Below, piece after piece: positions 1 through 64,000 of a stretch of DNA of 64,000 nucleotides. The translations under genes were made by a program, and so were the position numbers. The stretch's first letter is position 1, and every line of letters starts with the position of its first letter. Source of the DNA: Candidatus Stammera capleta. GTDB lineage: Bacteria > Pseudomonadota > Gammaproteobacteria > Enterobacterales > Enterobacteriaceae. The notes beneath the pieces are model-generated. The model was not told the DNA's origin. It saw only the letters and a program-made list of their open reading frames with translations, and ran no database searches. The stretch lies in NCBI GenBank assembly GCA_015134335.1, contig CP043975.1:196486-260485 (forward strand), read 5' to 3'.

Positions 1-1068
1 TGATGTATTTAAATTTTTAAAACATCAATTGTGTAAGCCACCAGAATTAAATGTATTTTTAATATTTAATTTTTTAGAATATTTTTTATTTAATATTCAT
101 GTTTTTAATATACCTTTTTTTACTAATATATATTTTTTAGTATTAAGTCCTTCATTATCAAAAGGTTTGCTTCCTATTCCCTTATAATAATGTGGATCTT
201 CAATAATATTTATTCATTTAGGTAAAATATATTTATTTAAAAGTTTATACATAAATGAAATTTTATTATATATATTTTTTCCCTTTAAAGATAAATATAA
301 ATATTTAAATAGTTCGGAGCTTGTAATATTATTAAATATAATATTATATTTTTTAGTTTTTAATGTTTTATCTTTACATTTATTTTTAAAAATTATTTCT
401 TTGTAAGTATTTAAAGGAAATAAATTTATATTATGTATTAAATCTGATAATTTATGATACTGTAAATATTTAGTATTATAATTTATATAATTATTTTTTT
501 TTGTAAAAATATTACTAATTAATATATAATTTTGGTTTATATAATATTTAATAAATTTATATTTATTATAAATAATTTTTAATATTGTATTTTTTATAAA
601 TATTATACCATCACTAAAAATTATATTTTTATTAAAATTTAAAATATTATTTTCTATGTTTTTACATAAATTAATTATATTAGATGTTTTTATATTATCA
701 AAAAATATTATTCCTAAGTTTTTATTATATTTTTTACAGAATTGTTTTTTATTACATAATAAATTATGTTTATCTTTAGATATGAATTTAATAGTATTTT
801 TTATATATTTTACAAATTTTAGTAGAGTTTTTTCTTTAAAATTATTACATATAAATTCACATTTTTTATATTTATAAAATATTTTAATATTTATTAATTT
901 AATGTTTTGTATGTTATAATTTTCTATATTTAGATTTTTAATTTTAAATTCTTTTCCTCAATTTATAGATATATTAATTTGTATATCTTTTATATTGGTA
1001 TGTAATTTTATAAAATTATATATTTTAATTATTTGTTTTTTGTAAAATTTTATTTTTTTAATTAACAT
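1..1068 (-). CDS. pmbA: PmbA/TldE metalloprotease subunit (3' end outside window)
   Basis: Partial gene: 356 codons are visible, against about 450 in E. coli PmbA, and the C-terminus lies beyond the left edge. PmbA (TldE) pairs with TldD as a cytoplasmic protease acting on small peptides such as microcin precursors and CcdA. The visible end carries the family segment with an EDP motif, GxGSxPFDxEG (here GIGSKPFDNEG), then a KKGILKTWIL stretch and a GGLHN segment, matching the PmbA C-terminal half. The tryptophan in KTWIL is encoded by TGA. The start at 1068 is the first ATG of the frame. TldD is not in this window, so whether a working heterodimer exists is unknown. Confidence 0.85.
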
Positions 1069-1149
1069 TTTTTTATTTTTATTATTTTATATAAATTATA
1101 AATTATATATATTTAAAATCAATATTTAATTAAATAAAAGGTGTAAATT

Positions 1150-1674
1150 ATGTATTTTAAAAATATTATTCCTTCTGGAATTAGTATTCCTAATGATATT
1201 TTTGTAATTATTGAAATATCTTATGGACATTCATTAATAAAATATGAAGTAAATAAAAAATATAATATGATGTTTGTAGATAGATTTATTAAAGCTCCTG
1301 TTTTTTATCCATTTAATTATGGATATATAAATAAAACATTAACATATGATGGTGATCCATTAGATGTTATGGTTTTAACTAATTATAAAATTTTAATAGG
1401 TACAATTATTCATTGTAGACCTATAGGTGTTTTAAAAATGGTTGATGAATCTGGTAAAGATTATAAAATATTGGCTGTTCCTAATTATAATATTTCTGAT
1501 GAATATAAAAATATTCAAGATATTTCAGATATTTCTAAATTTTATTTAGATAAAATTATATTTTTTTTTCAGAATTATAAATTACTTGAATCAAAAAAAT
1601 GAGTTGAAATAGATAATTGATATGATGTATTAGAAGCTAAATATATTATAAAAAAAAGTATATTTAAAAATTAA
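1150..1674 (+). CDS. ppa: Inorganic pyrophosphatase
   Basis: Soluble family I pyrophosphatase hydrolysing PPi to two phosphates, which pulls nucleic acid synthesis and tRNA charging forward. It is 174 aa, close to 176 in E. coli. Visible signature: the FYPFNYGYI region and the acidic metal-binding motif DGDPLDVMV near residues 71-79, then the EYKNI and DISDI region. TGA codons at 1600 and 1618 are read as Trp; stopping at the first would remove the conserved C-terminal helix. The ATG at 1150 follows an AAGGTG ribosome-binding site. It converges on the BI-1 gene, with a hairpin between them. Confidence 0.95.
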
Positions 1675-1685
1675 TATTTAATAAT

Positions 1686-1738
1686 AATTAATACCTTCAT
1701 ATAATTTAAATTATTGTGTAATTAAGAAGGTATTAATT
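1686..1738. terminator. Bidirectional hairpin terminator between ppa and the BI-1 gene
   Basis: A perfect 13-bp inverted repeat (AATTAATACCTTC at 1686-1698 and its complement at 1726-1738) lies in the 72-bp gap between two convergent genes. The ACCTTC/GAAGGT core is notably GC-richer than its surroundings, which suggests it is selected. Confidence 0.7.
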
Positions 1739-1746
1739 TATAAAAA

Positions 1747-2481
1747 TTATTTTTTGTTATTTTCTTCTTCTTGGGTTTTGTTATTATTTAATATTTTTAG
1801 TATTAATAAATATATATTAATAAAATTTAAATAGCATAATAAAGCTCCTAATATAGAATATTTTCTTAATTGATCATTTTCTTTAATAATCAAATTTATA
1901 CCTATTTCTTTTAATTTTTGTGTATCTCAGGTTGTTAAAATAATAAAAATAATTATACCTATATAAGACATAATTAGTGTAATATATGAATTTTTTAATA
2001 TTATATTAATTAAACTACATATTAGTATACTAGTTAAAAATATTATAGATAAATTTCCTATATTAGTTAAATCTTTTTTTGTTATAAATCCTACTATACT
2101 ACTAATTAAAAATATAATACTTGATATAAAAAATGATATATATATTGTATTATTATTATATATTAAAAATATACTAGATATTGAAATTCCTGTTAATATT
2201 GAATATACTATAAATAGTATAGTTGCAGTGTTAGCTTTTAATTTATTAATTGAATGTGTTAGAATAATTACTATAGTAAATTGAGTTATTAGTAATAATA
2301 TAACTAAAAAGTGATTATTGACTATTATATTAAATAAAAATGAAAATTTAGTTAAATATCATGCTGTAAATGAAGTTAATAATAATCCGTAAGACATTCA
2401 TAAATATACATTATATATATATATATTAAGATTATTATTTTTATTATTTATTTTTTTATTATTAAAATAATTTTTAGACAT
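1747..2481 (-). CDS. Bax inhibitor-1 family inner-membrane protein (YbhL/YccA type)
   Basis: A 244-aa polytopic membrane protein with about seven hydrophobic helices. The pattern is that of the bacterial BI-1 family: NTATILFIVYSILTG with ISISSIF, a GFITKKDL motif after helix 4, and near the C-terminus TTWDTQKLKEIG, which corresponds to the D/TQK motif of YbhL and YccA. E. coli paralogues are about 220-235 aa. YccA modulates FtsH; the activity of YbhL is uncertain, and pH-sensitive ion leak has been shown for a relative. Three TGA codons are read as Trp. I cannot tell which E. coli paralogue it descends from, so no symbol is given. Confidence 0.85.
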
Positions 2482-2616
2482 TATAATTTATTCCTATAAA
2501 AATTTTTATTTATTTTTTAAATAAAGATTAAAAAAATTTTTTTAAATATATTTTATTATACATTATATATAGTAATTACATTTTTTGTTTTTATTAAAAA
2601 AATTATTTTTTAATTT

Positions 2617-6514: not shown

Positions 6515-7036
6515 TTAATTTGGTTTAAAAAACATTATCATTTGTTTATTTTCTATTTTATTATTAAAAAAATCTAATTTTGATATGTTTTTTAAGTCTT
6601 TTGTTATATTTTTACACATATTAATAGCTATATTTTTATGAATTATTTCTCTACCTTTAAATCGTATTGTAATTTTAATTTTATATTTTTTATTAATTAA
6701 ATTAATAATTTTTTTTATTTTAATATTATAATCATTAATGTTAGTATTAGGTCTAAATTTAATTTCTTTTATTATAAAATTTTTATTTTTATTTTTTTTT
6801 ATATTTTTATTTCTTTGATATATAAATTTTCCGTAATCTAGTATTTTGCATATAGGGGGGTTAGTTTTAGGATTAATTTCTACCAAATCAAGATTATAAT
6901 TTTTAGCTATATTAAGAGCTTCATTTATATTTAATATTTTATTAAATTTATTTCCTATTATTCTAATTTTAGAAGATTTAATTTGTTTATTAATATTATA
7001 AAATGTTTTTTGAATGTTGTTTCTATAATTTTTAAT
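6515..7036 (-). CDS. infC: Translation initiation factor IF-3, with AUU start
   Basis: IF-3 prevents premature subunit joining and proofreads the initiator tRNA and start codon. The C-terminal domain is clear: VEINPKTNPPICKILDYGKF, IKEIKFRPNTNINDYNIK and TIRFKGREIIH. No ATG or GTG exists at the right place; the frame extends back to ATT at 7034-7036, eight bases after a GGAGA Shine-Dalgarno, and the first residues I-K-N-Y-R match E. coli, where infC also starts with AUU followed by AAA. From there the protein is 173 aa (E. coli 180). The AUU start is the basis of IF-3 autoregulation in E. coli, so that circuit appears to be kept. The start overlaps the thrS stop. Confidence 0.95.
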   Translation of the reverse strand: MKNYRNNIQKTFYNINKQIKSSKIRIIGNKFNKILNINEALNIAKNYNLDLVEINPKTNPPICKILDYGKFIYQRNKNIKKNKNKNFIIKEIKFRPNTNINDYNIKIKKIINLINKKYKIKITIRFKGREIIHKNIAINMCKNITKDLKNISKLDFFNNKIENKQMIMFFKPN

Positions 7037-7055
7037 AGTTGTATTCTCCTTTAAA
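7032..7055 (-). promoter_or_regulatory. infC ribosome-binding site with AUU start, overlapping thrS stop
   Basis: On the minus strand GGAGA lies eight bases before ATT (7036-7034). The TAA that ends thrS occupies 7034-7032, so the last thrS codon, its stop and the infC start interlock. This is the only gene in the window for which I found a clear AUU start, and it is the same exception as in E. coli. Confidence 0.8.
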
Positions 7056-8258
7056 TATTTTAAAATATTTATATTTTATTTTTTTTATTAAATAAGTAAT
7101 ATTTTTTTGTTTAATAATTTTTTTTTTAGTAAATCTAATATTTATTTTATTTATTAATTGTTCTTTATTTCCGCATATTATAATATATGGTACTTTTTGT
7201 AAAGTATATTTTTTTATTTTATAATTAATTTTTTTGTTTGTAAAATCAGAAGATATTCTTATATAATTGTATTTTTTAAATATATTTAATATTTTTTTAC
7301 AATATAATATATTTTTATTAGATATATTTAATATTATTATTTGAATAGGTGTTAATCATATTGGTAGTCATCCTTTATTATGTTCAATTAAAATAGCTAT
7401 AAATCTTTCTAAAGAACCTAATATTGCTCTATGTATAATAAATGGAGTTTTAAAATTATTATATTTATTTATATATTTTAAATTAAATTTTTTAGGTAAA
7501 TTAAAATCTATTTGTATTGTTCCACATTGTCATTTTCTTTTTAATTTATCTTTTAGAATGAATTCTATTTTAGGTCCATAAAATGCACCTTGTTTTTTTT
7601 TGATTAAAAATTTTATTTTATTATAATAAAATAATTTTATTATTGTTTTTTCAATTTTATTTCATTTTTTTTTATCACCTAAATATTTTTTAGGTCTAGT
7701 AGATATATAAATATATATTTTTTTAAATTTAAATATTTTATATATTTTTAAAGTTATATTAAGACAATTTAATATTTCTTTTTGTATTTGTTTTTTAGTA
7801 CAAAAAATATGAGCATCATCTTGAGTAAATGATTTTGTTCGCATTAAACCTAATAATGATCCAGTGGGTTCGTTTCTATGACATAAACCAAATTCAGAAT
7901 ATTTAATTGGTAATTTTTTATAAGATGGTTTATATTTCATATATAATGTTATATGCCCTAAACAATTCATAGGTTTTAAACAATACTTAATATTATTTTT
8001 TTTTATTTTAAATATATATTTTTTGTAATTTTTTAAATGACCACTAATTTTTCAGTTTTTTTGATTTATTAAATATGGTGTTTGTATTTCTTGGTAGTTA
8101 TTATCATTTAATATATAACGTATTAATTTTTTAATTAAATTTATTACAATTATTCCATTTTTTAATCAAAAAATAACTCCTGGATTTTTTTTATCTATAT
8201 AAAATATTTTAATATAGTTATTTATAATTCTATGGTCATAAATATGTAATTTTTTCAT
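7032..8258 (-). CDS. thrS: Threonine-tRNA ligase lacking TGS and editing domains
   Basis: Charges tRNAThr. It has 408 aa against 642 in E. coli, and the missing part is N-terminal: the ATG at 8258 is followed at once by [13 protein letters not shown], which aligns with E. coli residues from about 243 (EDHRKIGKQLDLY). The whole TGS (N1) and editing (N2) domains are therefore absent. The catalytic core is well kept: zinc ligands in KPMNCLGH, motif 2 in [42 protein letters not shown] and motif 3 in [11 protein letters not shown]; the anticodon-binding domain follows. Only about 70 nt separate it from the next gene, so no domain is hidden upstream. The stop overlaps the infC start. Confidence 0.95.
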
Positions 8259-8331: not shown

Positions 8332-8898
8332 ATGATGTATACAAATCATTTAATTTTTTCATTATCGTTTTGTATATTTATATTAAAATTATTTAATATT
8401 AAATATATATATATAACTAATATATTAATATCCTGTTTATTAGGTAGTATTATACCTGATATTGATCATACTAATTCTTTTATAGGAAATAGAATAAAAT
8501 ATATTTCTTTAATAATTAAAAATAAATTTGGTCATAGACAAATAACTCATAGTTTTTTATTTTTAGTTTTATTATATATTTTAATATTTTATTTAAATTT
8601 TTTTAATATTTTAAATTTAAATTTAGATTTTAAATATGGATTATTTATTGGTTGTGTTAGTCATATAGTAGCAGATATGTTAACATACAGAGGAGTTAAG
8701 TTTTTTTGACCATTTTATTATAATGTTAAATTTTATTTAAAGTTTTTAAATTTTAATAAAAATAAAAAAATAGAATATTATTTTTGTTTATTTTTATTAT
8801 TTTTAGCTTGTTTTTATGAAAAAATTTTTTGTATGTTAAATGTATTAATTAAATTTTTATATAAAATATATTATTATGTTCATATTATATCAGACTAA
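8332..8898 (+). CDS. YdjM-like membrane-bound hydrolase family protein (DUF457)
   Basis: A 188-aa integral membrane protein. The sequence carries the DUF457/YdjM metal-site pattern: SIIPDIDHTNSFIGNR near residue 40, FGHRQITHSF near residue 65 and CVSHIVADMLTYRGVKFFW near residue 110. E. coli YdjM is a LexA-controlled inner-membrane protein of unproven hydrolase activity. I chose the ATG at 8332 because the following residues match the YdjM N-terminus (GHLLFS in E. coli, NHLIFS here); a GTG at 8314 and an ATG at 8335 in the same frame are alternatives. The last 23 bases overlap recC, so the two may be coupled. Confidence 0.8.
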
Positions 8899-11800
8899 TA
8901 ATTTTAAAATATTAAAACATATGTTTCTTCATGTTTTAATAAAAAAACAATTTAAAAACAATATAATTAATATTTTAGTTGCTAATAAAAATATTTCTTT
9001 ATTTTTAAAATTTTTTTTTAGTAGTAATTTAGATATATTTGCTAATTTTAAATTTTATTCTCCTAGTAAATTTATATTTAAATTATGTAAAAAATATATT
9101 AATGATATTTCTAATATAAATTATTTTAGTAAATATAATTTATTATATAGTATAATGTATATATTACCTAAATTATTAATAAAACAAGAATTTGATTGCT
9201 TAAAAAAATACTTATTTGATGATATTAAAAATAATAAATTATTTAATTTATCTTATAAGATATCAAGTTTATATAGTAAATATTTAATATATAGACCTGA
9301 TTTATTAATTAATTGAGAGAAAAATATTTTAGATAAAAATATAAACAATATTCATCAATTTTGGCAATTAATTTTATGAAAAAAAATAGTAAATTTTTTA
9401 AAAAGAAAATTTAATTGTAAATTGTATATATCTAAAATTTTATTTAAATTTTTAAATTTTTTAAATAAAAAAAATAATATTTTTAAAGAACTTTATCAAG
9501 ATATTTTTATATTTAATATTAATAATTTAGCTCCAATATATTTAAATATTTTAAACACTTTGTCTAAATATTTCAATATTCATTATTTTATTGTTAATCC
9601 TTGTAAGGAATATTGATATGATATTAATTATTTTAATAATATTAATTATTATAATTATAAAAATATAAAATTAATATATGATTTTTCTTTAGATAATAAT
9701 AATTTAATGTTTTTATATTATAATAGAATGCTTGTAGAATATTTTTATTTATTGTCTAATTTTAATAATATTATAGAATTTAATTATTTTTATAAAAAAT
9801 TTAAAAGTAATAAACTTTTAGATAATATAAGAAAAAATATATTATATTTTAAAAATTTTAAGATTAATAAAAAAAAATTAGACAAAATAGATAATTCTTT
9901 AATTATTAAATCTTGTAATGGATATTTTGATGAAGTTAATATTTTAAAAAAATTTTTATTAAAAATAATTATAAATTATAAATATAAATATAGTGATATA
10001 TTAGTTTTAGTTACTGATATGAAATTATATTATCCATATATAAATTTAATTTTTTCTGATTATAAATATAAACATTTATTACCATATATTATATTAGATG
10101 AAAATTTAGAAAATAATTATGTATTTTTATTTTTATTTAAAATTTTAAATATTAGCAATTTCAATTTAAATAGTTATGAATTTATTAAATTATTAAAACA
10201 TAAAATTATTTTATCTAAATTTAATATTAATAATAATGAATTAGAAATTTTATTATATTTTATTAATAATATGAGTTTTATAAAAGATATTAAAAATTTT
10301 TCTTTTGATAATATTATTTTAAATAAAATTAATAATATTTCATTATTAAGTAATATTAAAAGTTTATTATTAAGTTATGCTGTTCATGAAAAATTTTTTA
10401 TTTGAAAAAATATTTTTAATTATGCAACTATAGGTAATAATTATATTAATAAATTAATAGCTAAATTTTCTGACTTTATTTTTAAAATTTTATATTGAAA
10501 AAAAATTTTAAATAATAAATATAATTTTAATATTTGAGTAAAATTGTTGAATAATCTTATAAAAGATTTTTTTAATTTTAATATTATAAAAAAATATTAT
10601 TTTTTACAAAAAAATTATTATAAATATTTGTTATTTAAATATAAATGTTTTAGTTTAATTAAAAAAATTGATTATTTAATATTTATTAAAATTTTAAATT
10701 TGTTTATTAATAAAAAATCTAGTAAAAAGTTGTTTTTACTTAATCATATTAATATTTGTTCAATAGAAAATATTATTTCTTTGTCTTTTAAAGTTGTTTG
10801 TATTTTAGGAGTAAATTCTAATATATATCCTAAAAATTTAACTAATTATAATTTTGATTTAATGAATATATATTATAAAATTGGTGATAGTTCAAGATTT
10901 GAATATGAAAAATATTTATTTTTTGAAAAAATTTTATTAACTAGAAATTTTTTATATATAAGTTATATAAATATTTCTTTTAAAAATTTTAATAAATATT
11001 TTCCTTCAATTTTGCTTAATAATTTATTAAATTATGTAGGTTTATATTTTAATATTTATTATAAAATTAAATTAAAGAAATTATTTTATAAATGTTGTAA
11101 TAAAAAAAAAAATAATAATATAGATATTAATAATAAATTTATTTTAATAAATAAAAATATTAATATAAAATATATTACTTTAAAAAATATATATGAATTT
11201 TGATTAAATCCTGTAAAATATTTTTTTAATAATTCTTTATATATTAAATTTAATTATATTATGAATAATTTATTGGTTTATTATAATATAGATTTTAATA
11301 TTAAAAATTTTTATATGTTTAGAAAAATATTTATAAATTATTTATTAATGGGAAAAAATTTTAATAAAAATTTTTATTTATATTTACAAATGTTAAATTT
11401 AATTCCTATGGGAAATATAGGAAAAATAATATGAAATAAAGAAATTTATAATATAATAAAATTATTTAATAGAATGTTTAATTATGTAAAAAATATTAAA
11501 TTATATAATTTTAATATTAATTATAAAAATTTTGTATTAAGTGGTAATTTTAAATTATATAATAAATTAAATTTACATTGAATACCTAAACGTATTAATG
11601 TTAATGATTTATTAATTTTTTGGATAAATCATTTAATATATAATTATATAGGAATGAATTGTAATAGTTTTTTATATGGTTATAATGGTATTTTTAAATT
11701 TAAAAAATTAGATATTAATACATCTAAATATAATTTAAATTTTTATATAAATGGATTTTTAAGTGGTATTAAAAATATGTTATTTTTTTTGCCTGAATTT

Positions 11801-12034
11801 AATAATTATTATGTATTTAATTTTTATAGTTTTAATAAAGAAAAATTTTATAAAAAGAAATTATTATTTAAATTTAAAAATGTATTATTAAATTATAAAT
11901 ATTTAAAATTATATATTAAAGATATATATATAAATTATTTAATTAATAATAATTATTTTATAGATTATAAAAATATTATTAAACAGTCTGAAAAATGATT
12001 GTTACCTATGTTAAAATATTTAAAAATTAAATAA
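8876..12034 (+). CDS. recC: RecBCD enzyme subunit RecC
   Basis: The non-catalytic subunit that splits the duplex and reads Chi in RecBCD. It has 1052 aa against 1122 in E. coli. Conserved stretches include LYQTNN near the start, KLFNLSYKISSLYSKYLIYRPDLLINW (E. coli KLFQLSSKAADLFDQYLVYRPDWLAQW), NPCKEYWYDI, the SIENIISLSFKVVCILGVNSNIYP region and GDSSRFEYEKYLFFEKILLTR. The frame is open over more than 3 kb only if roughly ten TGA codons are Trp. ptrA, which lies between recC and recB in E. coli, is missing; recB starts 15 nt later. Chi-recognition residues could not be judged by eye. Confidence 0.95.
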
Positions 12035-12049
12035 AAGTATAATATAAAT

Positions 12050-15000
12050 ATGGTTAAGGAAACTATTTTTAATTTATTAAAAAGTAAATTATATAAGAGT
12101 AGTTTAATAGAAGCATCTGCTGGAACAGGTAAAACTAATATTGTTTCTTTATTATATTTAAGATTTTTACTAAAAATAAATATAAGTAATAAATTTAATA
12201 ATTTAAATATTAATAATATTTTAATAGTAACTTTTACTGATTTAGCTACTTTAGAAATCAAGAGTAGAATTTTAAATAATATTAGATTTTTAAAAGAGTC
12301 TTGTATATTAAAAAAATGTGTTAATAATGAAATTATAGAAATATATGAATATATTAAAAATTCAGTTAATATAATTAATTTATTAATACAATTAGAATAT
12401 CAAATAGATAATATTTCTATTTTTACTATACATAGTTTTTGTAAAAAAATTATATTTAATAATTTTTTAGAATTTAACATTAATTATAATTCAAATATTA
12501 TTTCTAATGAATTTTATTTAATTTATGAATTAGTAATTATTTATTGGTATAAAAATATATCTAATTTATCTAGTAAAATTATTAAAATAATTATAACATA
12601 TTGGTATAATTATAATAAATTACATAAAACAATTATTCCTTTATATAATCATATTAAAATTGATTTTAATTTTAATAGAAAAAAATATAAAAATATTAAT
12701 AGTTGTTATAAATTTATTATTAATCATATTAATATTTTTAAGTCTTTATGAAATTTAAAAAAAAAATATATATATAATTATTTATGTTTAATAAAAAAAC
12801 ATATAAAAAATATTTATGATATAGATTCTTTATTTAAAGAAATAAATTTATGAGTTAAAGATGAAACTTTAAATTTTAATTTACCTAATAATTTAATTAA
12901 GTTAAGTTATAATTCTTTAATATATAATAATATTGTAATTTTTAAATATGATATATTTATTTATATTGAATATTTATTATATTTAGTAAAAGATTTACAT
13001 AATTATATAATTTTAGATTGTATATTTTTTATTAATAAAAATTTAGAAAAGCGTAAAAAAAAATATTCTTTAATTAGTTTTAATGATTTAATAATTAAAT
13101 TAAATAATTATTTGAATATAGATTTTAAAGAATCTTTGATTAATATTTTAAGAAAAAATTTTCCTATAGTATTAATAGATGAATTTCAAGATACTGATAT
13201 TTATCAGTTTAATATTTTTAATAATATTTATATAAAAAATAATACTAATTTATATACAAAAATTATATTAATTGGAGATATTAAACAATCTATTTATTCT
13301 TTTAGAGGAGCAAATATATTTCATTATATAAGTATAAAAAAATTAGTTAATCATTGTTATACATTTAATATTAATTGACGTACTTCATATTTTTTAAATA
13401 AAAGTATTAATTATATATTTAGTTATTTTAAATATCCTTTTTATTATAAAGAAATTTTATATATAAAATCTAAATCATGTTTAAATAGTAAAAAATTTTA
13501 TATATTAAAAAATAAAAAATTAGATAGTTCTTTAAAAATTTTTTATATATATAATTATAGTGGTTTAAATAAAAAATATAAATTAGCTGAATATTGTGCA
13601 TATCAAATTTTAAATTTATTAAATAAAAAATATAGCTTAATAGATAAATTTACTTTTAAAAATAGATATATAAAATTTTCAGATATATCTATATTAGTAT
13701 ATAATAATAATGAAATTAATATTATTTTAGAAGTATTTAATAAATTTAATTTACCTATTATAGGTTTTAATAATACTAAAAATATATTTAATATATCTGA
13801 ATCATTAGAAATATATTATATTATTAAATCTATTTTAAACCCTGTTTCTAAATTAGATTTAAAAAATGCGTTATTAACAAAATTATTTGGTTATAATATT
13901 TTTAATATTAATAAATTTATTAATAATAATAAATTATTTAATTATATATTAGAAGAATTTTATTTATATTATGATATTTGAAATAATCATGGATTTTATT
14001 CTATGATTAAATTTATTATTAAAAAAAAAAAAATTATAATAAAAAAATTAAATAATTTTAATAAGTATATAACTAATATATTACATATTTCTGAAATATT
14101 ATATAAAGTTAATTTAAAATTAAATGATAAGTTTTTATTATTAAATTGATTTGAAAATAAATTAAAAAATATAAATAATATTTGTAAAACTAAATATTAT
14201 ATTAGATCTTCTTATTATAAATATGAATCTATTAATGTTACTACAATACATAAGTCTAAAGGTTTACAATATAATATTGTATGATTACCTTTTTTAATAT
14301 CTTTAAGTAAATATTATAATTACTATTTTTTTAATAACAAAAAAAATTTTAAATATAATATAGATTTATATAAATTTAAATTTAATAAAAATTTAATGTT
14401 AAATGAAATATATTCTGAAGAAATAAGAATACTTTATGTTGCTTTAACAAGAGCAATATATCAATGTAATATATTTTTATATAATAATAATAATATAAAT
14501 AATTATTTTAGAAATATTTATAGTTATATTAATAATATTTTTAATATTGATTTAGAAAAAAAAAATATAAATTTTAGTAATATTAAATATAAATTTATAT
14601 TTATTAAATATATTAACTTAAAATTATATTTAAGTAATTATGAAAAAAAAATTTATATATTAAAACAAAAAAAAGGTAAAAAAAATATTATAAATTATAA
14701 AAATATTTCTTTATGTAAATTTAATAAAAATATTTTTAATTATTCTAAAATAAAATTATTAATGAATTATAATTTTAATTTAAATATTAATATTAAACTA
14801 AATAAATATAATAAATATAATTTAGGTAATTTACCTAAAGGAAAAAAGATAGGTAATGTATTACATTATATATTAGAGATTATTAATTTTAAAAATGAAT
14901 TAAATTTTAATTATTTATTATTTATTTTATATAAATTTCAAGTTAACAAAAAATGAATTTTTATAATAAAATATATGTTATTAAATTTATTAAATTATAA

Positions 15001-15535
15001 ATTTATATTTTTAAATGTTAATTTGGTAAATATTAAGTATAAAAATATATTTAAAGAATTTAATTTTGTTTTATCTTTAAAGAAAAAAATAGATTTTGAT
15101 CAATATTTTAATTTATCTAGTAAATATGATTTAATTACTAAAAGTTGTTTAAATAACAATATAGAAGATATTTTATATGGATATTTAGATGGAGTTATAG
15201 ATTTAATTTTTATATATAAAAATTGTTATTATATAGTTGATTATAAAACTAATTGATTAGGTTATCATTATACTGATTATAATTATGAAAATATGTTTAA
15301 TTCAATGTGTGATAATAGATATGATATTCAATATCAAATATATAGTATAGCTTTACATAGATATTTAAATATTAAATTATCAAATTATAATTATAATGTT
15401 AATTTTGGTGGTATATATTATATTTTTTTGAGAGGTTTAAATTTAAATTCTAAATTTAGAAGTATATATGGTATATATTATATTAAACCTAAATTTAAAT
15501 TAATAAATAAATTAAATTTATTATTATTTAAATAA
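12050..15535 (+). CDS. recB: RecBCD helicase-nuclease subunit RecB
   Basis: A 3'-5' SF1 helicase and the only nuclease of RecBCD, 1161 aa against 1180. Helicase motifs in order: Walker A EASAGTGKT (21-29), FTIHSFCKK, LIDEFQDTD, IGDIKQSIYSFRGA, TTIHKSKGLQY and EEIRILYVALTRA. The C-terminal nuclease domain is intact: GNVLHYILE, GYLDGVIDLIF, YYIVDYKTNWLG and QYQIYSIALHRYL supply the DGxxD, DYK and Q/Y motifs of the RecB nuclease family. The W in DYKTNW is TGA (15254-15256). Retention of both activities suggests a working enzyme for repairing double-strand ends. A run of 13 A occurs near 14021-14033. Confidence 0.97.
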
Positions 15536-15546
15536 AAAAATTATTT

Positions 15547-17385
15547 ATGAAAAATATAATTTATAAATTTTTATTTGAATCTTTAAAATACAAAGAATTT
15601 GAATTAGTTGATATAACTTTTGCTAAATTATTTGAATTTAATAATGATAATTATAGTTGTATATATATGTTGTTTGCTTCAATTGTAAGTTTATCAACAA
15701 GAAAAGGTAATGTTTGTTTGTTTTTAAATCAAATATTAAATAATAATTTTTTTACTAATTATATAAAGAATTTTTTATTTTATTTTTTTAATAATTATAT
15801 TTCATTAAAAAAATGTATTGAATTGATGTTTATAAATGATATTATAAGTTCTTGATATCAAAATAGATATACACCTTTAATATTATTTAATGATTGTATT
15901 TATTTATATAAGTATTGATTTTATGAAAATTATATTATTAATTATTTAAATAAAAATTTATTAGTAAAAAAAGTTAGTTCTTTTTTAGATAAAAAAATAT
16001 ATTTTTACATGGAACATTTAAATATTAAAAAATATTTTTATAAACTTATATTTAGTATTTTAAATAATAAAATTACTATTATTTCTGGTGGTCCTGGTAC
16101 AGGTAAAAGTATGTTAATTATTAAATTAGTATTTTTTTTATATAAAATATGTAAATTTAATATTAATAATTCTATTATTTTATTATCTTTAACAGGTAAA
16201 TCTTCATCATTACTTAATAATAGTTTATTTAATAAAATTAATAAATTTAATATTAATTTAAGAAATAAATTTAATTTTAATATTAAATGTTATACATTAC
16301 ATAAATATTTAGGATATAATTTTAATTATAATTATATTAAATATAATATAAATAATAAAATAAAAGCTAATTATATTATTATAGATGAATGTTCAATGTT
16401 AGATTTAGTAACATTTTATAATTTTATATCATCTTTAGATATAAATACTAAAATTATTTTAGTAGGCGACAAAGATCAAATTTCTTCAATAGAGTGTGGT
16501 TCTGTTTTTAATGAAATTTGTAATTTAATTAAAAATAAGTTAATAATAAAAAAATATAATAATTATATTTTAAATTATAAAAATTTCTTTTTTTTAAATA
16601 AAAATTATCGTTATAAAAATAATAAATATTTATATAAATTTTTAAATTTAATTAAAGTTAATTATAAATCTAAATTATATAAATTTATTTATAATAAAAA
16701 TATAAATTTTAAATATAATATTAATTTTTATGATTCTAATAAATTTGATTATAATTTTTTATTAAAATTATGTATTAGTCATTATAGTAATTATATTAAT
16801 TTAATTAAATTAAATTTTTTTGATATTAATATAAATTTATTATTTAAATATTTTAATAAAAATAAAATTATTTGTATATTAAAAGATTCAAAATATGGTA
16901 TTAATATTTTAAATAAGTATATAAATAATTATCTTATAACTAATAATTTAACTAATATTAATTATAAAAATATATTATCTCTTAAAAATAATTATAATGG
17001 TGAACCTATATTGATAATTAGAAATAATAATTATATTAAATTATTTAATGGTGATATAGGTTTTTTTTATATAAATAAATTTAATAAATTAAGATTAATT
17101 TTTAAAAATCTTAAAGAAGATATACATCCATTTATTTTAGAAAATTATTGAATTAATTCTTGAGCAATTACAGTACATAAATCTCAAGGTTTAGAATATG
17201 ATAATATTTTATTAATATTGCCTAATAGGATTATATCTTTATTAAATAATAATATTATTTATACTGCTTTAAGTAGAGCAAAAAAAAATATTATAATATA
17301 TGGCGATATTAATATTTTTTGGAAAAGTATAAAAAATTATGATATTAAATATAATAATATAATAAACAGAATAAATGTTTTTTAA
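15547..17385 (+). CDS. recD: RecBCD 5'-3' helicase subunit RecD
   Basis: 612 aa against 608 in E. coli. SF1B helicase motifs: Walker A SGGPGTGKS around residue 181, the CYTLHKYLG motif, Walker B IIDECSMLD, VGDKDQISSIECGSVF (motif III), AITVHKSQGLEYDN (motif V) and YTALSRAKKN (motif VI). The N-terminal RecB-interaction region is shortened but contains LSTRKGNVCL, matching E. coli LSRLTEQGHVCL in place. It follows recB by 11 nt, so recC-recB-recD is one transcription unit. The stop codon overlaps the end of the convergent holA by four bases. Confidence 0.96.
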
Positions 17386-18107: not shown

Positions 18108-20654
<2,547 letters not shown>

Positions 20655-40081: not shown

Positions 40082-40091
40082 ATTACATATT

Positions 40092-51206: not shown

Positions 51207-51704
51207 TTAAACCTTATTAATATTAATATTATTTAGTATATTAATTAAATTTATTTTATTGTCATTAGGTACTTTTCGAATTTCTAATTCTATATTTAAT
51301 TTATGTAATTTATAAAAATATTTTATATCTTTTTTAGATACGCATATTGCATCTGTTATTTGTTGTTTGTTTTTTTTATATGCCATTCCTCCTATATTAA
51401 TAGATTTTATATTTGTTCCTAATTTAATAATTTTAAAACAATCTTTAGGATTAGTTAATAATAATAATACTTTATCTTTTTTATATTTAGGATTTTTATA
51501 TACTTTAATAAATTTATTAATATTAATTACATGAGAAGTAATACTAGATGGAGATACTTGTTTTAATAATTGTACTCTAAGTGAATCTTTACTAATTTTA
51601 TTATTAATTACTATTATTCTAGATATATTTAGAGTTTTGCTTCATCCAGTACATACTTGTCCGTGTATTAATCTATCATCAATTCTAGTTAGTTTTATTT
51701 TCAT
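51207..51704 (-). CDS. manX: PTS mannose-family IIB component, separate gene
   Basis: Cytoplasmic phosphotransfer domain, 165 aa. LTRIDDRLIHGQV carries the phosphorylated His14 (His175 of E. coli ManX), then VSPSSITSHVININKFIKVYKNPKY, LLLLTNPKD and SINIGGMAYKK. In E. coli IIA and IIB are fused in ManX; here a TAA at 51706-51708 ends IIA and this gene restarts at ATG 51704. The stop is unambiguous even under code 4. The match to the ManX B domain is nearly full-length, so it looks functional. Confidence 0.9.
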
Positions 51705-51705
51705 A

Positions 51706-52131
51706 TTATTTTTTTTTATTTTTATTTATATTAAAATTTGTACTTTTTATTCCTTTGATTCCATTGTTAAGAGCAATTTTAATTAATTTATTAATTGAAG
51801 TATTTGTGTTTCTTGACATTATTGTTTCTAGTAACATTGGTATATTAGTACCTGATATTATTTCTGCTATAATATTTTTTTTATAATTTAATAATCTATT
51901 TGCTGCATTATAAGGACTTCCTCCTAATATATCTACGAAAAATATAATATTTTTATTATTACAATATTTTTTAATATAATTTTTATATTTTTTAATAATA
52001 TTATCAATATTTTCATTACTTAAAAAATTTATTGCTTTAATATTTTTTTGAGTTCCTATTATTAATTCTATTGTATTAAGTATTTCTGTTGCTAAATTTC
52101 CATGCATACAAATTATTATTGAAGTTTTCAT
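51706..52131 (-). CDS. manX: PTS mannose-family IIA component, separate gene
   Basis: 141 aa; phosphoryl acceptor from HPr. ICMHGNLATEILNTIELIIG carries His10 (E. coli IGTHGWAAEQLLKTAEMLLG), followed by FFVDILGGSPYNAANRL, ISGTNIPMLLETIMSRNT and NNGIKGIKS. A short Lys-rich tail replaces the Ala-Pro linker of E. coli ManX. First gene of a four-gene IIA-IIB-IIC-IID operon. HPr and enzyme I must be encoded elsewhere. Confidence 0.92.
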   Translation of the reverse strand: MKTSIIICMHGNLATEILNTIELIIGTQKNIKAINFLSNENIDNIIKKYKNYIKKYCNNKNIIFFVDILGGSPYNAANRLLNYKKNIIAEIISGTNIPMLLETIMSRNTNTSINKLIKIALNNGIKGIKSTNFNINKNKKK

Positions 52132-55325: not shown

Positions 55326-56693
55326 TTAAATATTTTTTAAAGTTGGAAAAAATATAATTTCTTTAATAGTATTTATTTTTCCTAAAATCATTATTAATCT
55401 ATCTATTCCAATACCTATTCCTGCAGTAGGTGGTAGTCCGTATTTTAAAGCTTCTATATAATTTTTATCATAGTTTATATTTTTATTTTTTATTTGTTTT
55501 ATAAATCTTTTTTTTTGTTCTTTGTAATTGTTTAATTCTGAAAAACCATTAGCTATTTCATATCCGTTAATAAATAATTCAAATCTATCAGAAATATTTT
55601 TATTGTATTTATTTTTTAATGCTAATGGAGAAGTTTCAATAGAATATTCAGTTATAAATGTAGGTTGAATAAGTTTTTTTTCTGTTGTTAATTTAAATAT
55701 TTTTTCAATAATTTTATTATTTGATAATTTAATATTTATATTTAATTTAATAGCTATTTTTTTAATATATTTTTTGTTATCTAGTTCTTTAATATTTTTA
55801 AATAAAGAACTATATTTATATATAGCTTTTTTAATAGTTAATACTTTATATTTTTTATAGAAAAAAATTTTGTTATTTTTAATTGTTATATATGTTTTAT
55901 TTTTATGAATATTTTGAAATAAATAGTTAATTATTTTTTGTATTAGTTTCATCATATATTTATAATTTGAATATGCTTTATAAATTTCTATCATAGTAAA
56001 TTCAGGATTATGTGTTGTTGATATTCCTTCGTTTCTGAAATTTCTATTTAATTCAAATATTTTAGTAAATCCTCCTATAATTAATTTTTTTAAATATAAT
56101 TCAGGTGCTATTCTAAGATACATTTTCATATTTAATTTTTTATGATATGTAATAAATGGTTTTGCTATAGCTCCTCCAGGAATAGGATGCAACATTGGAG
56201 TTTCTACTTCTAAATAATTATTATTATTAAGATATTTACGTATTAAATATAAAATTTTAATTCTTAATAAGAAGTTTTTTTTAGTTTTTGAATTAATAAT
56301 TAAATCTAAATATCTTTTTCTAAATTTAGTATTTTTTTTTTTTAATTTATTATATTTATCAGGTAAATGTAATTTTATTTTTACTAATTTTTTTATATAT
56401 TTGCATTTAATTGTTAATTCATTTGTGTTTGTTTTGAATAAAAATCCTTTTATATATATTATATCGCCTATATTACTATTTTTAATTATTTTAATATATT
56501 TATGTTTTAAAATTTTTTTATTTGCCAATATTTGTATATTATTTTTAATATCTTGTAAATTAAAAAAGATATTTTGTTTCATTATTCTTTTAGAAATAAT
56601 TCTACCTGAAAATTTAATTTTTAAATTTAATTTTTCTATAATATTTTTAGGTTTATTTTTATATAATTTAATTATATAAGATATATTTTTCAT
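55326..56693 (-). CDS. lysS: Lysine-tRNA ligase (class II)
   Basis: 455 aa against 505 in E. coli. OB-fold N-terminal domain reduced; LSGRI is FSGRI here. Catalytic motifs: KFRKRYLDLI, FLEVETPML as YLEVETPMLHPIPGGAIAKPF, YLRIAPELYLKKLIIGGFTKIFELNRNFRNEGISTTHNPEFTMIE and GLPPTAGIGIGIDRLIMI. In E. coli prfB is directly upstream; here pth is upstream and prfB is absent, which agrees with the recoding of UGA. Confidence 0.97.
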   Translation of the reverse strand: MKNISYIIKLYKNKPKNIIEKLNLKIKFSGRIISKRIMKQNIFFNLQDIKNNIQILANKKILKHKYIKIIKNSNIGDIIYIKGFLFKTNTNELTIKCKYIKKLVKIKLHLPDKYNKLKKKNTKFRKRYLDLIINSKTKKNFLLRIKILYLIRKYLNNNNYLEVETPMLHPIPGGAIAKPFITYHKKLNMKMYLRIAPELYLKKLIIGGFTKIFELNRNFRNEGISTTHNPEFTMIEIYKAYSNYKYMMKLIQKIINYLFQNIHKNKTYITIKNNKIFFYKKYKVLTIKKAIYKYSSLFKNIKELDNKKYIKKIAIKLNINIKLSNNKIIEKIFKLTTEKKLIQPTFITEYSIETSPLALKNKYNKNISDRFELFINGYEIANGFSELNNYKEQKKRFIKQIKNKNINYDKNYIEALKYGLPPTAGIGIGIDRLIMILGKINTIKEIIFFPTLKNI

Positions 56694-56701
56694 TATATTA
56701 T

Positions 56702-57265
56702 TTAATATTGTTTAGAATTTATTATATTTTGTATCTTATTAAAATTATTTTTTATTATTAGTTTTTTTATATATTTAATATTCATTTTTATAGATTTAAC
56801 AATTAAATTTTTTTCTTTAGTAGGTGGAATACTTAGTACATATTTTTTTAAATTATTTGTATTATAAGGTTTACCTATTCCTATTCTAAGTTGATAAAAG
56901 TTATATTTTATGTATTTTATAATATTTTTAATACCGTTATGTGTATTATTTTTATTTTTATTATTAATTATAATTTTTGATTTACCTATATTTAGGTTAA
57001 TATCATCATGTATTATTAAAATATTTTTATTATTGTAATTTAAGTATTTTTTTATTTTATATATATGAAAACCATACTTATTAATATAAGTATTTGGAAT
57101 ATATATATATATTTTTTTTTTTTTTATATTTAATTTATATAGTTTATTTAAAATAATATTATGTAATTTAATAAATTTTTTTATAAATCATATTCCTACA
57201 TTATGTCTGGTATTATTATATTTTTTATTTTTGTTTCCTAATCCAATTATTAATTTTATATTCAT
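56702..57265 (-). CDS. pth: Peptidyl-tRNA hydrolase
   Basis: Recycles peptidyl-tRNAs dropped from ribosomes. 187 aa against 194. IIGLGNKNKKYNNTRHNVGIWF with Asn11 and His21 catalytic (E. coli [22 protein letters not shown]), LIIHDDINLNIGK with the catalytic Asp, HNGIKNIIKY and FYQLRIGIGKP. Immediately upstream of lysS, 8 nt apart. Confidence 0.96.
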
Positions 57266-57392: not shown

Positions 57393-58436
57393 ATGAATAA
57401 TTATTATAAAGATAAATTATTTAAGATTCAAAAGAAAATTATATATATAGAAAGTAAATTATATGATAAAAAATTTAATTATATTAATAATAAATTTAAT
57501 GTAAAGATTTTTAAGAAATATTCTAATTTATTAAAGATTAGAAATATTTTAACAACTATAAATGAATATAAAGTTGAATTAAATAAATTAAAAATTTTAA
57601 AATATGATAAAGATTTGTTTGATTTAGTTTATGAAGAAAGAAATATATTAAAAATAAAGATTAATAATTTAATTAATAAATTAAATAAATATGATTGTAA
57701 TTCAGATAACAAAGTTTCTAGTTTATATTTAGAAATTTATTCTGGAACTGGAGGTGAAGAGGCTGCTTTTTTCGTTTATGATTTATTTAGAATGTATATT
57801 AAGTATTGTGAAAAAATGAATTGAAAAGTAGATTTAATAAGTAGTAATAGTATAACTTGTAAAAGTTATAAATATATAATTTTAAAAATATCAGGTAAAA
57901 GTGCTTATAATTATTTAAAATTTGAATCTGGAGGTCATAGAGTTCAAAGAGTACCTAAAACTGAAACTCAGGGTAGAATACATACTTCAACATGTATAGT
58001 TGCAGTTATGCCTATAGCGCCAAAATTATTAGCTCCTATTATAAAAAATGAAGATATTAAAATTGATACTTTTCGTTCTTCTGGTGCTGGAGGACAACAT
58101 GTAAATACTACTGATTCTGCAGTTAGAATAACTCATTTATCAACTGGAATAGTTGTTGAATGTCAAAAGGAACGATCACAACATAAAAATAAATTTAAGG
58201 CTTTAGAAGTTTTAAAAGCTCGTATTTATTCTTGAGAATTACAAAAAAGGAAAAAAGAAATTAATATTAAAAAAAGGAATTTATTAGGTACTGGTTTACG
58301 TAGTAATAGAAGTAGAACTTATAATTTTATAAAAAATAGAGTTACAGATCATAGAATAAATTATTCTATTTATTGTTTAGATAAAATTTTAAATGGAAAT
58401 TTAAATTTGTTAATTAAATTTTTATTAAAAAAATAA
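57393..58436 (+). CDS. prfA: Peptide chain release factor 1
   Basis: Recognises UAA and UAG. 347 aa against 360. The stop-codon motif is PKT within [19 protein letters not shown] (PxT class, RF1; RF2 has SPF), and the catalytic GGQ is in [41 protein letters not shown]. Also NRTYNF as SRTYNF and [10 protein letters not shown]. Trp in KMNWKV is TGA. Since UGA is sense here, RF1 alone would suffice. prmC follows 19 nt downstream, as in E. coli. Confidence 0.98.
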
Positions 58437-58455: not shown

Positions 58456-59298
58456 ATGAAAATAAAAAAATGATTAAATAAAATTTTGTTATATACATAT
58501 AAAAATAAGTATATTTATAAAGAAAGTTTAATTTTATTAAGTAATGTTTTAAAAAAAAATTTATTATGAATTTATTTAAATTTAGATTATATTTTAGTAG
58601 AAAAAAAATTAATATTTTTAAATTTATATTTTATAAAAAGATTAAGAGGAGAACCAATTTGGTATATTTTAAATAAATGTTTTTTTTATAAAATATATTA
58701 TAAAATATATCCTGATGTTTTTATACCTAGAATAGGAACAGAAATAATGTTAAATTATTTATTAAATTTAATAAAAAAGTATAAATTATTTAATATTTTA
58801 GAATTAGGTTTTGGTTCTGGAGGTATTTCTTTAAATATAGCAAAAAAGTATAAAAATAGTTTTATTTGAGCTGTTGATAAAGATGATTTAATATTAAATT
58901 TACTTAAATATAATTGTAATTTTTTAAATATTAAAAATATAATTATATATAAAAGTAATTGATTTGATAATATTAATAGTAGTAAATTAAATTTTTTTGA
59001 TTTAATTGTTTGTAATCCACCTTATTTATGGAGTAAAGATAATTGTTTAAATAAAGGTGATTTACGTTATGAAAATTATACTAGTTTAGTATCTAGTAGT
59101 AAAGGTTTATTAGATATTATTTATATTATAAAAAAATCTTTTTTTTATTTAAAAATTAATGGTTTTTTGATTATTGAGCATTCTTTGTTAAATTTAGAAA
59201 AAATTGTTTTAAATTTTAAAAAATATTTTTATTTTGTAAAGACCTATAAAGGTTTAAATTATAATTATAGATTTACTATAGGAAAAAAATTAATATAA
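58456..59298 (+). CDS. prmC: Release factor glutamine methyltransferase PrmC
   Basis: Methylates the GGQ glutamine of release factors. 280 aa against 277. RLRGEPIWYIL (E. coli RRDGEPIAHLT), VFIPRIGTE (LIPRPDTE), SAM-binding ELGFGSGGISL, DLIVCNPPYL (NPPY catalytic motif) and a LLDIIYIIKKSFFYLKINGFLIIEH region. Tryptophans are mostly TGA. It ends next to the argS stop, tail to tail with no gap. Confidence 0.95.
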
Positions 59299-61008
59299 TT
59301 ATATATTGTATAAAATAGGTATTCCTAATATATTTAATCCAATTCTTAGTATTTTGGAAATTATTGCAATTAGTTTTAATTTGCTTTTTTTTAATTTATT
59401 GTTTTTAATATTAGAAATATTTTGTTTTTCATATAAATTTGAAAATAATGAACTTATATCATATAAATATTTGCATATAATATTAGATTTGCATTTTTTA
59501 GCACTTTTTTTTATAATTTCTTTAAAATTTAATATTTTTAGTGAAATTAAATATTCTAATTTAGATGTAATATAATATTTAAAATATTTTATACTATTGG
59601 TAGTATTAGTATTATTTTTTCTTAATATAGAAATTATTCTAGTATATGAATATTGTATATATAAACTAGTATTAGATTTTAATGATAATACTTTATTTAT
59701 ATTAAAATAATAATTAGTTTTTCTATTTTTAGATAATTCTATATATTTTATAGTTCCTATTGTAATTTTTTTAGTTATTCTGTTTATTTTATATTTATTA
59801 TATTTTTTATTATAATTAATAAAATTTTTAGATTTTTTTTTAATTAAATTAATTATTTGTTTAATTGTTAAATAGTTGTCTTTTCTAGATTTTATTGGTT
59901 TGTTATTTTTATTTAATATTAAACCGAATTTATAATGTATAATATTAAAATTTTTAGGTATATAATTAGAATTTTTACATATTTGAAAAATTTGTTTTAA
60001 ATATTCTGTTTGTCTATAATCTATTATATAAATAATTTTATTTGGTTTAAATTTTTTATATCTATATTTAATAGCAGCTATATCTGTAGTGCTATATAAA
60101 AAACCTTTGTCTTTTTTTTGTATTATAATTGGATATTTAATATAATTTTTTAAGAAAATTATAATAGATTTATTGTTTTTAATAGCAATTTTTTTTTTTA
60201 TTAAATCATTTACAATTTTAGTTAATGATTTTTGATAGTAGCTTTCTCCTATAGTATGTTTTTTTTTTAATTTTATATTTAAATATTTGTATATTTTATA
60301 ATTTTCTTTTGTTGTTATTTTAACAATTTTTTTTCATAAATTATATATATTTTTTTTTTTATTTTGTAATTTAACAACATTTTTTTTTGCTTTTAATGCA
60401 AATTTATTATTTTTATAAAAATATTTTTGAGCTTTTTTATATATATAACTTATATATTTTATATTTTTGATTTTTTTTTCTAATTTATATTTTTTTATTC
60501 ATGTAATTAATATACCAAATTGTGTACCTCAATCACCTATATGATTAATTTTAATTATTTTGTTTCCTAAAAATTTTAAAATATTTGATAAGTAATCACC
60601 TATTATAGTAGAGCGTAAATTTCCAATATGCATTTCTTTTGCTATATTAGGAGAAGAATAATCAATTAATATTTTTTTTTTTTTAGTTTTTTTTATATTA
60701 AATTTTTTTTTTTTAGAAATTTTATTTATTAATTTTTCAATATATTTTTTATTTAAAAAAATATTTATAAATCCAGGATTAATTATTTTAATTTTATTAA
60801 ATATTTTATTTTTTAATAATTTTTGTTTAATGAGTTTAAATAAAAAATTTAATTTAATTTTTTCTTTTTTAGAAATTATAATTATACCATTAATTTGATA
60901 ATCGCTATATTTATAGTTATTTTTTATTTTATAATTATATTTTTTATTAATATTAATAGATTTTAGAATATTTGTTATTTGATTTTTTATGTAATTTTTA
61001 ATATTCAT
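59299..61008 (-). CDS. argS: Arginine-tRNA ligase
   Basis: Class I synthetase, 569 aa against 577. [24 protein letters not shown] with a HVGH-like motif (HIGN), INHIGDWGTQFG where W is TGA (60529-60531), [14 protein letters not shown] and the C-terminal anticodon-binding domain with [11 protein letters not shown] (E. coli QYAYTRVLSV). The sequence ends [13 protein letters not shown] (E. coli GLGVLGLEVVDRM-like). Lysine-rich drift is strong in the N-terminal third. Confidence 0.96.
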
Positions 61009-62781: not shown

Positions 62782-62814
62782 TTGTTTTAGGTTAAATTTT
62801 TATTAAAATAAAAT

Positions 62815-63324: not shown

Positions 63325-63362
63325 TTAATTAAAAATATGTTTGATTTAATTAATATATATGT

Positions 63363-63394
63363 TAATCTATATTTATAGATTATATTTTTTTTTT
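63363..63394 (+). terminator. Hairpin plus T-tract after ruvC
   Basis: A nine-base inverted repeat (TAATCTATA at 63363-63371, its complement at 63374-63382) is followed by TATTTTTTTTTT, a classic rho-independent shape on the plus strand. It separates ruvC from cspE and could also act in the cspE leader. Confidence 0.65.
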
Positions 63395-63407
63395 AAAGGT
63401 AATATTG

Positions 63408-63620
63408 ATGTCTACAAGAGTTAAGGGTAATGTTAAATGGTTTAATGAATCTAAAGGTTTTGGTTTTATTACTCCAGTTAATGGTGATAAAGATGTATTT
63501 GTACATTTTTCAGCAATTCAAAGTAGTGGTTTTAAAACTTTAACTGAAGGTCAATCTGTAGAATTTGAAATTACAAATGGTGCTAAAGGTCCTTCAGCTA
63601 CAAATGTTGTTCCATTATAA
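63408..63620 (+). CDS. cspE: Cold-shock-like RNA chaperone CspE/CspC
   Basis: 70-aa OB-fold RNA/DNA chaperone and antiterminator. [34 protein letters not shown] includes both RNP motifs (KGFGFI, VFVHF), and the C-terminus [19 protein letters not shown] is almost the E. coli CspE sequence. It is by far the least diverged gene of the window and has a better codon and base composition than its neighbours. ATG 63408 is used; a TTG just before it is ignored because E. coli CspE begins MSK. RBS AAAGG upstream. Confidence 0.95.
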
Positions 63621-63844
63621 AATTAATAATATAATTAATTTTATATTAATTTAAAGTTGTATTTATATTTTAAATTTTATATGATGTAATTTATTATTTA
63701 AAAATAAATAACTTAAATTTTTAAAATTTAATTATATATTAATAATTGTTTTATTTATTTATTTTATTTATTATTTAAATAATTATTACATCTATTTTAA
63801 TTATTATTTCAATAAAATCTTATTATATTTAATGTTTTGTTTAA
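63621..63844. other. Gene-free AT-rich region downstream of cspE
   Basis: About 224 bases (285 including the palindrome that follows), the largest gap in the window. I see no open frame, tRNA or GC-richer island that would suggest an RNA gene. The 3' end of the cspE transcript and a promoter for the next gene presumably lie here. Confidence 0.5.
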
Positions 63845-63894
63845 TGTCACATATTATATAAATATATATATATATATTTATATAATATGTGACA
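63845..63894. repeat. Perfect 50-bp palindrome
   Basis: Two 25-base arms without a spacer: TGTCACATATTATATAAATA continues into an alternating AT core, and the second arm is the exact complement ending in ATGTGACA at 63894. It lies 11 bases before the next ATG. It can form a hairpin or cruciform; the GTCACA/TGTGAC ends are GC-richer than their surroundings. Confidence 0.85.
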
Positions 63895-63905
63895 ATAAAT
63901 ATATT

Positions 63906-64000
63906 ATGAGTATATTAAATTTAATTAAAAAAACTAAAAAAAAAATAAAAAAAATAGATAATTTAGATATTAAAAATATTAAAAAAATAAAACTATATAA
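63906..64000 (+). CDS. Start of an unidentified gene (continues beyond window)
   Basis: ATG at 63906 opens a frame of 31 codons to the right edge without a stop (MSILNLIKKTKKKIKKIDNL and on). The visible part is only a lysine- and isoleucine-rich N-terminus. I cannot identify it. In E. coli the cspE region lies near lipA, whose N-terminus is also basic, but no motif supports that. Confidence 0.45.
   Translation, partial: MSILNLIKKTKKKIKKIDNLDIKNIKKIKLY

Follow-up and report, generated by a model that had tools for sequence, protein, structure and literature searches.

Genes of the window and of the genome

The stretch analysed here, called the window below, comprises 64,000 bases (196,486-260,485) of the main contig of Candidatus Stammera capleta, a symbiont of tortoise beetles, and the question it raises is how this bacterium reads the codon UGA. 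Its genes belong to bacterial housekeeping families, many of them enterobacterial in type, and TGA codons lie within their reading frames when UAA and UAG are the only stops (translation table 4, or code 4). Among the 41 genes compared with Escherichia coli below, the highest count is found in leuS (18108-20654, reverse strand), with 19 in-frame TGA and no TGG. The tyrS gene (43854-45113, reverse strand) encodes 419 residues by code 4, with six in-frame TGA (Trp 125, 180, 197, 243, 258 and 418) and a TAA stop, while argS (59299-61008, reverse strand) holds three (60529, 60499 and 60334). On the forward strand lie gyrB (36616-39006; TGA at 37126, 38488 and 38848, and one TGG), trmD (40068-40778; TGA at 40716), recB (12050-15535; eight TGA, that at 15254 among them), ppa (1150-1674; TGA at 1600 and 1618) and truA, the tRNA pseudouridine 38-40 synthase gene (41147-41917; four TGA). 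Two further forward-strand genes concern translation termination: prfA, encoding release factor 1 (RF1; 57393-58436), with TGA at 57822 and 58233, and prmC, encoding the release-factor glutamine methyltransferase (58456-59298), with four TGA and two TGG.

The assembly amounts to 267,621 bases in three contigs, and the G+C content (GC) of the window is 13.8%. This small, very AT-rich genome matches that of S. capleta, described as a pectinolytic symbiont with a genome of 0.27 Mbp (PMC7042692). The genus sample consists of 12 genomes, each listed at 0.2-0.3 Mb: the one that holds the window (G000) and 11 other congeners (G001-G011). All 12 have a match to the GH28 pectinase family, weak in G010 (34.4 bits), and the match sits on the small second contig in 11 of them. 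A scan of named genomes by sequence matched 17 loci, all of them distant, in a collection that may omit the genome's own and close records. For comparison, 80 reduced relatives, with a listed size of at most 1.0 Mb, were chosen by eye from 295 genomes. Their standard code is presumed from the two release factors found in each and from the rows listed for in-frame TGA, among which a single in-frame TGA appears, in G126, and none in the other rows listed.

Tryptophan at UGA in the window

Of 55 code-4 open reading frames (ORFs) of at least 120 residues in the window, 41 were those for which an Escherichia coli MG1655 homologue was retrieved, and these were aligned pairwise after masking of TGA as X. 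They contain 118 in-frame TGA codons spread over 31 genes. Among the 111 that could be aligned, 91 fall on an E. coli tryptophan, against a background of 178 tryptophans in 15,548 aligned columns (1.1%); the other 20 fall on F (four), P (three), A (three), E (two) and eight residues met once each. TGG is used as well, with 11 codons in the 41 genes, 10 of them aligned and six on tryptophan. Under the standard code, the non-overlapping ORFs of at least 120 residues in the window number 35 and total 8,298 residues; under code 4 they number 47 and total 18,889.

The 41 ORFs end at TAA (38) or TAG (three). Because they were delimited by these two codons in the first place, a concealed TGA stop would reveal itself as an extension beyond the end of the E. 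coli protein. The largest C-terminal excess is nine codons, in eno, followed by eight in pheT, and in neither of these two does a TGA follow the last aligned position; the 41 genes thus show no end concealed at a TGA. The original prediction, made on the letters of the window alone, had proposed an Enterobacterales-like genome in which UGA is tryptophan, all located genes stop at TAA or TAG, and TGG remains in use, and each of these points is borne out. The nine codons on which it relied (tyrS 44523 and 43860, argS 60529, gyrB 37126, trmD 40716, recB 15254, prfA 57822, ppa 1600 and 1618) were all found in frame.

Decaying genes do occur in reduced symbiont genomes, and the TGA codons could in principle be nonsense mutations in such genes, or sequencing errors, under a standard code. 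The alignment of 91 of 111 TGA with tryptophan, their spread over 31 of 41 genes that include synthetases, gyrase and prfA, and a like pattern in the sampled parts of the 11 other congeners refute this explanation, to which we attach a vanishingly small probability. Given the tryptophan alignment and the lack of hidden TGA ends, the use of translation table 4, with UGA as tryptophan and UAA and UAG as stops, is firm at the sequence level.

The reassignment itself is already known. S. capleta appears with UGA Stop→W in the table of known reassignments of the Codetta paper, which cites Salem et al. 2017 (PMC8629427), and the recoding is given again in PMC13092985; the original prediction of a further gammaproteobacterial case is therefore superseded, and the headline is not new. 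In the accounts consulted, S. capleta has a 0.27-Mb genome, pectinolysis, the UGA Stop→Trp change and a CCA tRNA-Trp classed in PMC13092985 as having a 5-bp anticodon stem, and no difference was found between that description and the genome studied here.

UGA usage across the genus

The same usage extends to the other congeners. In each of the 11, most aligned TGA fall on E. coli tryptophans (14/22 to 16/20 per genome), and among the 10-30 genes in the sampled part of each genome, none overruns the E. coli end by more than 15 codons. G003 was sampled over 159 kb. Its 30 genes with E. coli homologues hold 83 TGA and eight TGG, 59 of 79 aligned TGA fall on tryptophan, and the ORFs stop at TAA, with an overrun of the E. 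coli end that never exceeds 15 codons.

When tryptophan codons were counted over ORFs of at least 100 residues, TGA made up 345 of 381 in G003, 268 of 286 in G005, 183 of 198 in G000 and 216 of 228 in G001. The share in G003 does not differ significantly from that in any single congener (p=0.15, 0.54 and 0.09 against G005, G000 and G001, respectively), and is slightly lower than the pooled share of the three (667/712, p=0.07). In these four genomes TGA is somewhat rarer among tryptophan codons than the A-ending codon is among those of lysine or of leucine (TTA/TTG), while in G001 its share equals the A-ending share for glutamate and exceeds those for glutamine and arginine.

Release factors and the prfB site

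The PCRF and RF-1 domains of class-I release factors are each matched once in 11 of the 12 congeners and twice in G003, and PCRF is matched at least twice in all 80 reduced relatives. By these domain searches, prfB, the gene for release factor 2 (RF2), was not found in 11 of the 12 congeners, including the genome that holds the window, where prfA is the only class-I release factor gene found; the search for prfB that the original prediction had called for thus came out as absence. In these 11 congeners, termination would be carried out by RF1 alone.

The place that prfB would occupy can be identified. In E. coli, the gene lies directly upstream of lysS. In the window, lysS (55326-56693, reverse strand) is separated from pth (56702-57265, reverse strand) by eight bases (56694-56701, reverse strand), and across the 11 congeners without prfB the open frames of these two neighbours lie too close together to accommodate another gene. 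G003 carries prfB (L066:6703-7818) between pth and lysS, immediately upstream of the latter and oriented alike, just as in E. coli. This second release factor gene reaches 341.7 bits against the RF2 model and 190.6 against the RF1 model; the curated RF2 cut-off is 370, and the prfA of the window likewise scores below its own curated cut-offs. It encodes 358 residues from an ATG, has a GC of 16.2% (18.1% in the sampled 159 kb of G003) and keeps the SPF and GGQ motifs intact. No frameshift TGA was found near its start, and its three tryptophan codons, all TGA, lie on conserved tryptophan columns.

An intact prfB together with a tRNA-Trp bearing only the CCA anticodon had been put forward in the original prediction as part of what would refute recoding. 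G003 has precisely this combination, yet TGA still occupies tryptophan positions throughout its genes, which makes that part of the test indecisive.

How G003 accommodates RF2 can be read in two ways: either the factor is inactive on UGA, or the tRNA outcompetes it there, in which case the three UGA codons of prfB may also limit its own synthesis. That RF2 no longer terminates at UGA and is kept only for UAA has, in our estimation, about an even chance of being right. The heavy use of UGA as tryptophan in G003, not significantly below that of G005, G000 or G001, is in line with such a loss, as is the divergence of the protein, which is changed at 14 of the 85 columns that do not vary among 17 other RF2s, while the RF1 of the same genome is changed at five of 78; the same idea has been put forward for the gammaproteobacterium XS4 (PMC12213064). 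None of the 14 changes falls within SPF or GGQ, however, and the slightly lower UGA share of G003 in the pooled comparison is what weak residual competition might give. The ratio of RF2 to RF1 identity to E. coli is lowest of 17 in G003 (0.79), but is nearly equalled in G111 (0.80), presumed to use the standard code.

In the relative G016, RF2 (L128) carries NPI where the codon-reading motif SPF would stand, and TGA nevertheless ends 10 of 116 ORFs in that genome, whose tRNA-Trp has A at position 24.

tRNA-Trp and the reading of UGA

The assembly that holds the window has 28 tRNA genes, and ARAGORN run on these loci gave CCA as the only tryptophan anticodon. The tRNA-Trp(UCA) that the original prediction had suggested looking for was not found among them; such a tRNA underlies the recodings of Hodgkinia and most Mycoplasmatales. 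All 12 congeners have one tRNA-Trp match each, always CCA, the 11 others having been searched with the CCA gene as query only. Alignment of the gene from G000, G001, G002, G003 and G005 with E. coli trpT shows the G of positions 24 and 43 replaced by A and U, respectively. A24 and U43 occur in 12 of 12 congeners, ten of which have A-U and two G-U as the 27-43 pair. The miaA gene is also kept in all 12. When three tRNA-Trp genes were folded, neither of the two symbiont ones formed a cloverleaf, and the folding was uninformative. The tRNA-Trp of G002, G003 and G005 (L043, L046 and L047) is one base shorter than that of G000 and G001, in the variable/T-stem region.

Both substitutions have precedents. 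With the Hirsh change, G24A in tRNA-Trp, a tRNA with a CCA anticodon can read UGA; UGA reading in E. coli is also reported for G43U, by which the uppermost pair of the anticodon stem is lost (PMC13092985). All 12 congeners thus have the Hirsh-type arrangement of A24 with a CCA anticodon, while the Blastocrithidia-like arrangement, a 4-bp anticodon stem without A24, is not seen in any of them, positions 27 and 43 being paired and A24 present throughout. In the mechanism proposed on these grounds, tRNA-Trp(CCA) would read UGA by tolerating a mismatch of C34 with A in the third position of the codon, and substitutions elsewhere in the tRNA, namely A24 in the D stem and the purine27-U43 pair at the top of the anticodon stem, would make this reading efficient. 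The modification of A37 started by MiaA, one that helps UGA reading, may assist as well, and the retention of miaA in all 12 congeners would fit such a role. The combination of A24 and U43 would then be a concrete candidate for how Stammera reads UGA with a CCA tRNA whose 5-bp stem is fully paired, a matter that PMC13092985 appears to leave open.

Several findings weigh against the reading proposed here. Among the 60 of the 80 reduced relatives whose tRNA-Trp pattern was readable, A24 occurs in 16, from eight genera, so that the Hirsh-type arrangement also occurs in genomes with a presumed standard code. That A24 explains everything is rejected on this ground, and because the four carriers sampled more deeply still have ORFs ending at TGA: 10 of 116 in G016, four of 83 in G099, two of 58 in G111 and two of 46 in G074, next to six of 76 in the G24 control G063, and some of these ORFs lie between adjacent genes. 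U43 is found in none of the 60 relatives, and its association with recoding comes from one lineage of 12 related genomes and counts as one event. Moreover, since 27-43 is A-U or G-U in all 12, the stem differs from the 4-bp version for which UGA reading was demonstrated in E. coli; with the pair restored as purine-U, the effect of U43 is put forward here as a proposal. Finally, the assembly is 93.2% complete, which bears on the search for other tRNAs.

An unmodified C34 would not ordinarily pair with A, and the anticodon may therefore be changed at a level beyond the gene, either by editing or modification of C34 so that it pairs with A, or by a tRNA-Trp(UCA) that is unassembled or host-derived. 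The CCA gene in all 12 genomes, the incompleteness of the assembly and the CCA-only query used for the other 11 speak in its favour. However, each of the 12 assemblies gave one tRNA-Trp match, where a similar UCA copy should also have matched, A24 and U43 offer a possible route without UCA, and XS4 and Candidatus Zinderia insecticola are likewise described as CCA-only. A changed anticodon is accordingly considered unlikely, and mismatch reading by tRNA-Trp(CCA) the better candidate.

TGA-ended ORFs in the relatives were called by length, without homologues. In a smaller draw, they numbered nine of 137 in ten A24 carriers and 15 of 139 in ten other genomes (nine G24, one unread), two sets that differ in GC. 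Long open frames running past TGA in G074, G016 and G060 were considered as signs of recoding and rejected on visual inspection: four consist of two adjacent genes that share a frame (glyQ-glyS, cyoB-cyoC, aceE-aceF and bioB-bioF), and the others resemble frames lying opposite genuine genes. One relative, G141, has a tRNA-Trp(CCA) (G141:C1:702482-702525) that combines A24 with a G27-G43 mismatch, hence a 4-bp anticodon stem; in one 20-kb stretch of it (L142), none of 14 ORFs ends at TGA.

Order of events

Whether RF2 loss drives or follows the UGA→Trp reassignment is a question laid out in PMC2704378 and PMC8629427. A tree of six proteins (2,270 columns, LG+F+G4) from the 12 congeners and E. 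coli places G003 and G005 as sisters with support 100/100. The topology that would allow a single loss of prfB, with all others in one clade without G003, is 45.8 log-likelihood units worse and is rejected by the approximately unbiased (AU) test (p=4.7e-8). G003 and G005 have a tRNA-Trp that is identical over its length, and the same tRNA thus serves with and without RF2. As UGA is tryptophan in all 12 genomes and RF2 is present in G003 only, the simplest history is a recoded common ancestor that had RF2, followed by at least two losses. This suggests that UGA became a tryptophan codon before RF2 was lost. The tRNA changes and the new meaning of UGA would have come first, in a common ancestor still making RF2, which would then have been lost at least twice while the G003 lineage kept it. 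To be set against this order, as against the mechanism above, the tree comprises only six proteins and the branch that fixes its root is supported at 64/73.

The reverse order, in which RF2 loss came first and drove the reassignment and prfB was later regained by G003, agrees with the absence of prfB from 11 of 12 congeners. RF2 loss has been proposed as the common force behind such recodings by McCutcheon et al. 2009, though their own scheme begins with a tRNA-Trp altered in its D or anticodon arm (step 1) and places RF2 loss second (step 2; PMC2704378). Yet prfB of G003 stands directly upstream of lysS in the E. coli-like orientation, so that a transfer would have needed to restore the ancestral place, its GC is 16.2% against 18.1% for the 159-kb sample, and its own three tryptophan codons are TGA. 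Regain after an early loss is therefore judged very improbable. The order preferred here, recoding before RF2 loss, matches step 1 followed by step 2 of the scheme of PMC2704378, and not RF2 loss as the driver, which is argued in the same paper.

Altogether, an account in which the genome uses table 4, UGA is read by mismatch by tRNA-Trp(CCA) with the help of A24 and purine27-U43, RF1 alone terminates in the 11 congeners without prfB, and RF2 was lost later is, on the genome sequences, probably correct. With somewhat less assurance, though still on the favourable side, the genus may be held to preserve successive stages of one reassignment: the A24/U43 tRNA-Trp(CCA) would have taken UGA while RF2 was still made; UGA would have come to supply about nine tenths of the tryptophan codons and disappeared as a stop with RF2 present, as in G003; and RF2 would have been lost at least twice, in G005 and in the lineage or lineages of the other ten. 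If this is true, RF2 loss is a consequence and not a cause of the new code, and the synthesis of RF2 in G003 requires three UGA codons to be read through, which may form a self-limiting loop. The sister pair, sharing the code and the tRNA-Trp, one with and one without RF2, makes cause or consequence testable. No report of a prfB-bearing Stammera was found in the literature searched, which covered few subscription journals.

Comparison with other recoded systems

XS4, of the Fastidiosibacteraceae, is another gammaproteobacterial case in which UGA is tryptophan and the only tRNA-Trp is CCA. Like G003, it has an RF2 gene with the codon-contacting residues kept, and thus provides a published precedent for a retained RF2 (PMC12213064). 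Its tRNA-Trp is classed as having a 4-bp stem (PMC13092985), whereas the top pair in Stammera is A-U or G-U. XS4 is a single genome, and no order of events can therefore be drawn from it.

Zinderia resembles Stammera in reading UGA as tryptophan, in having no tRNA-Trp(UCA) found and in the loss of prfB, but it is a betaproteobacterial symbiont with a 4-bp anticodon stem, a class defined without A24. Candidatus Hodgkinia cicadicola and the mycoplasmas also combine UGA as tryptophan with loss of prfB, and Hodgkinia differs in that its sole tRNA-Trp is UCA (PMC2704378). The Hirsh UGA suppressor of E. coli (tRNA-Trp G24A) shares A24 and a CCA anticodon with Stammera (PMC13092985), in which, unlike in the suppressor, A24 is natural, fixed and combined with purine27-U43.

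Other features of the window

Three genes of the window appear to be truncated at the N-terminus in comparison with E. coli: thrS (7032-8258; 408 against 642 residues), yidC (33946-34779; 277 against 548) and infC (6515-6886; 123 against 180), the last with a TTG start that is possibly misplaced. The genes recC, recB and recD (8876-17385) are all retained despite the 0.27-Mb genome, with 22 in-frame TGA summed over the three. The manX gene is split into IIA (51706-52131) and IIB (51207-51704) parts. It is likewise split in G004 and G006; the stretches of G007, G009 and G010 showed none, and it forms a single ORF in G001, G002, G003, G005, G008 and G011.

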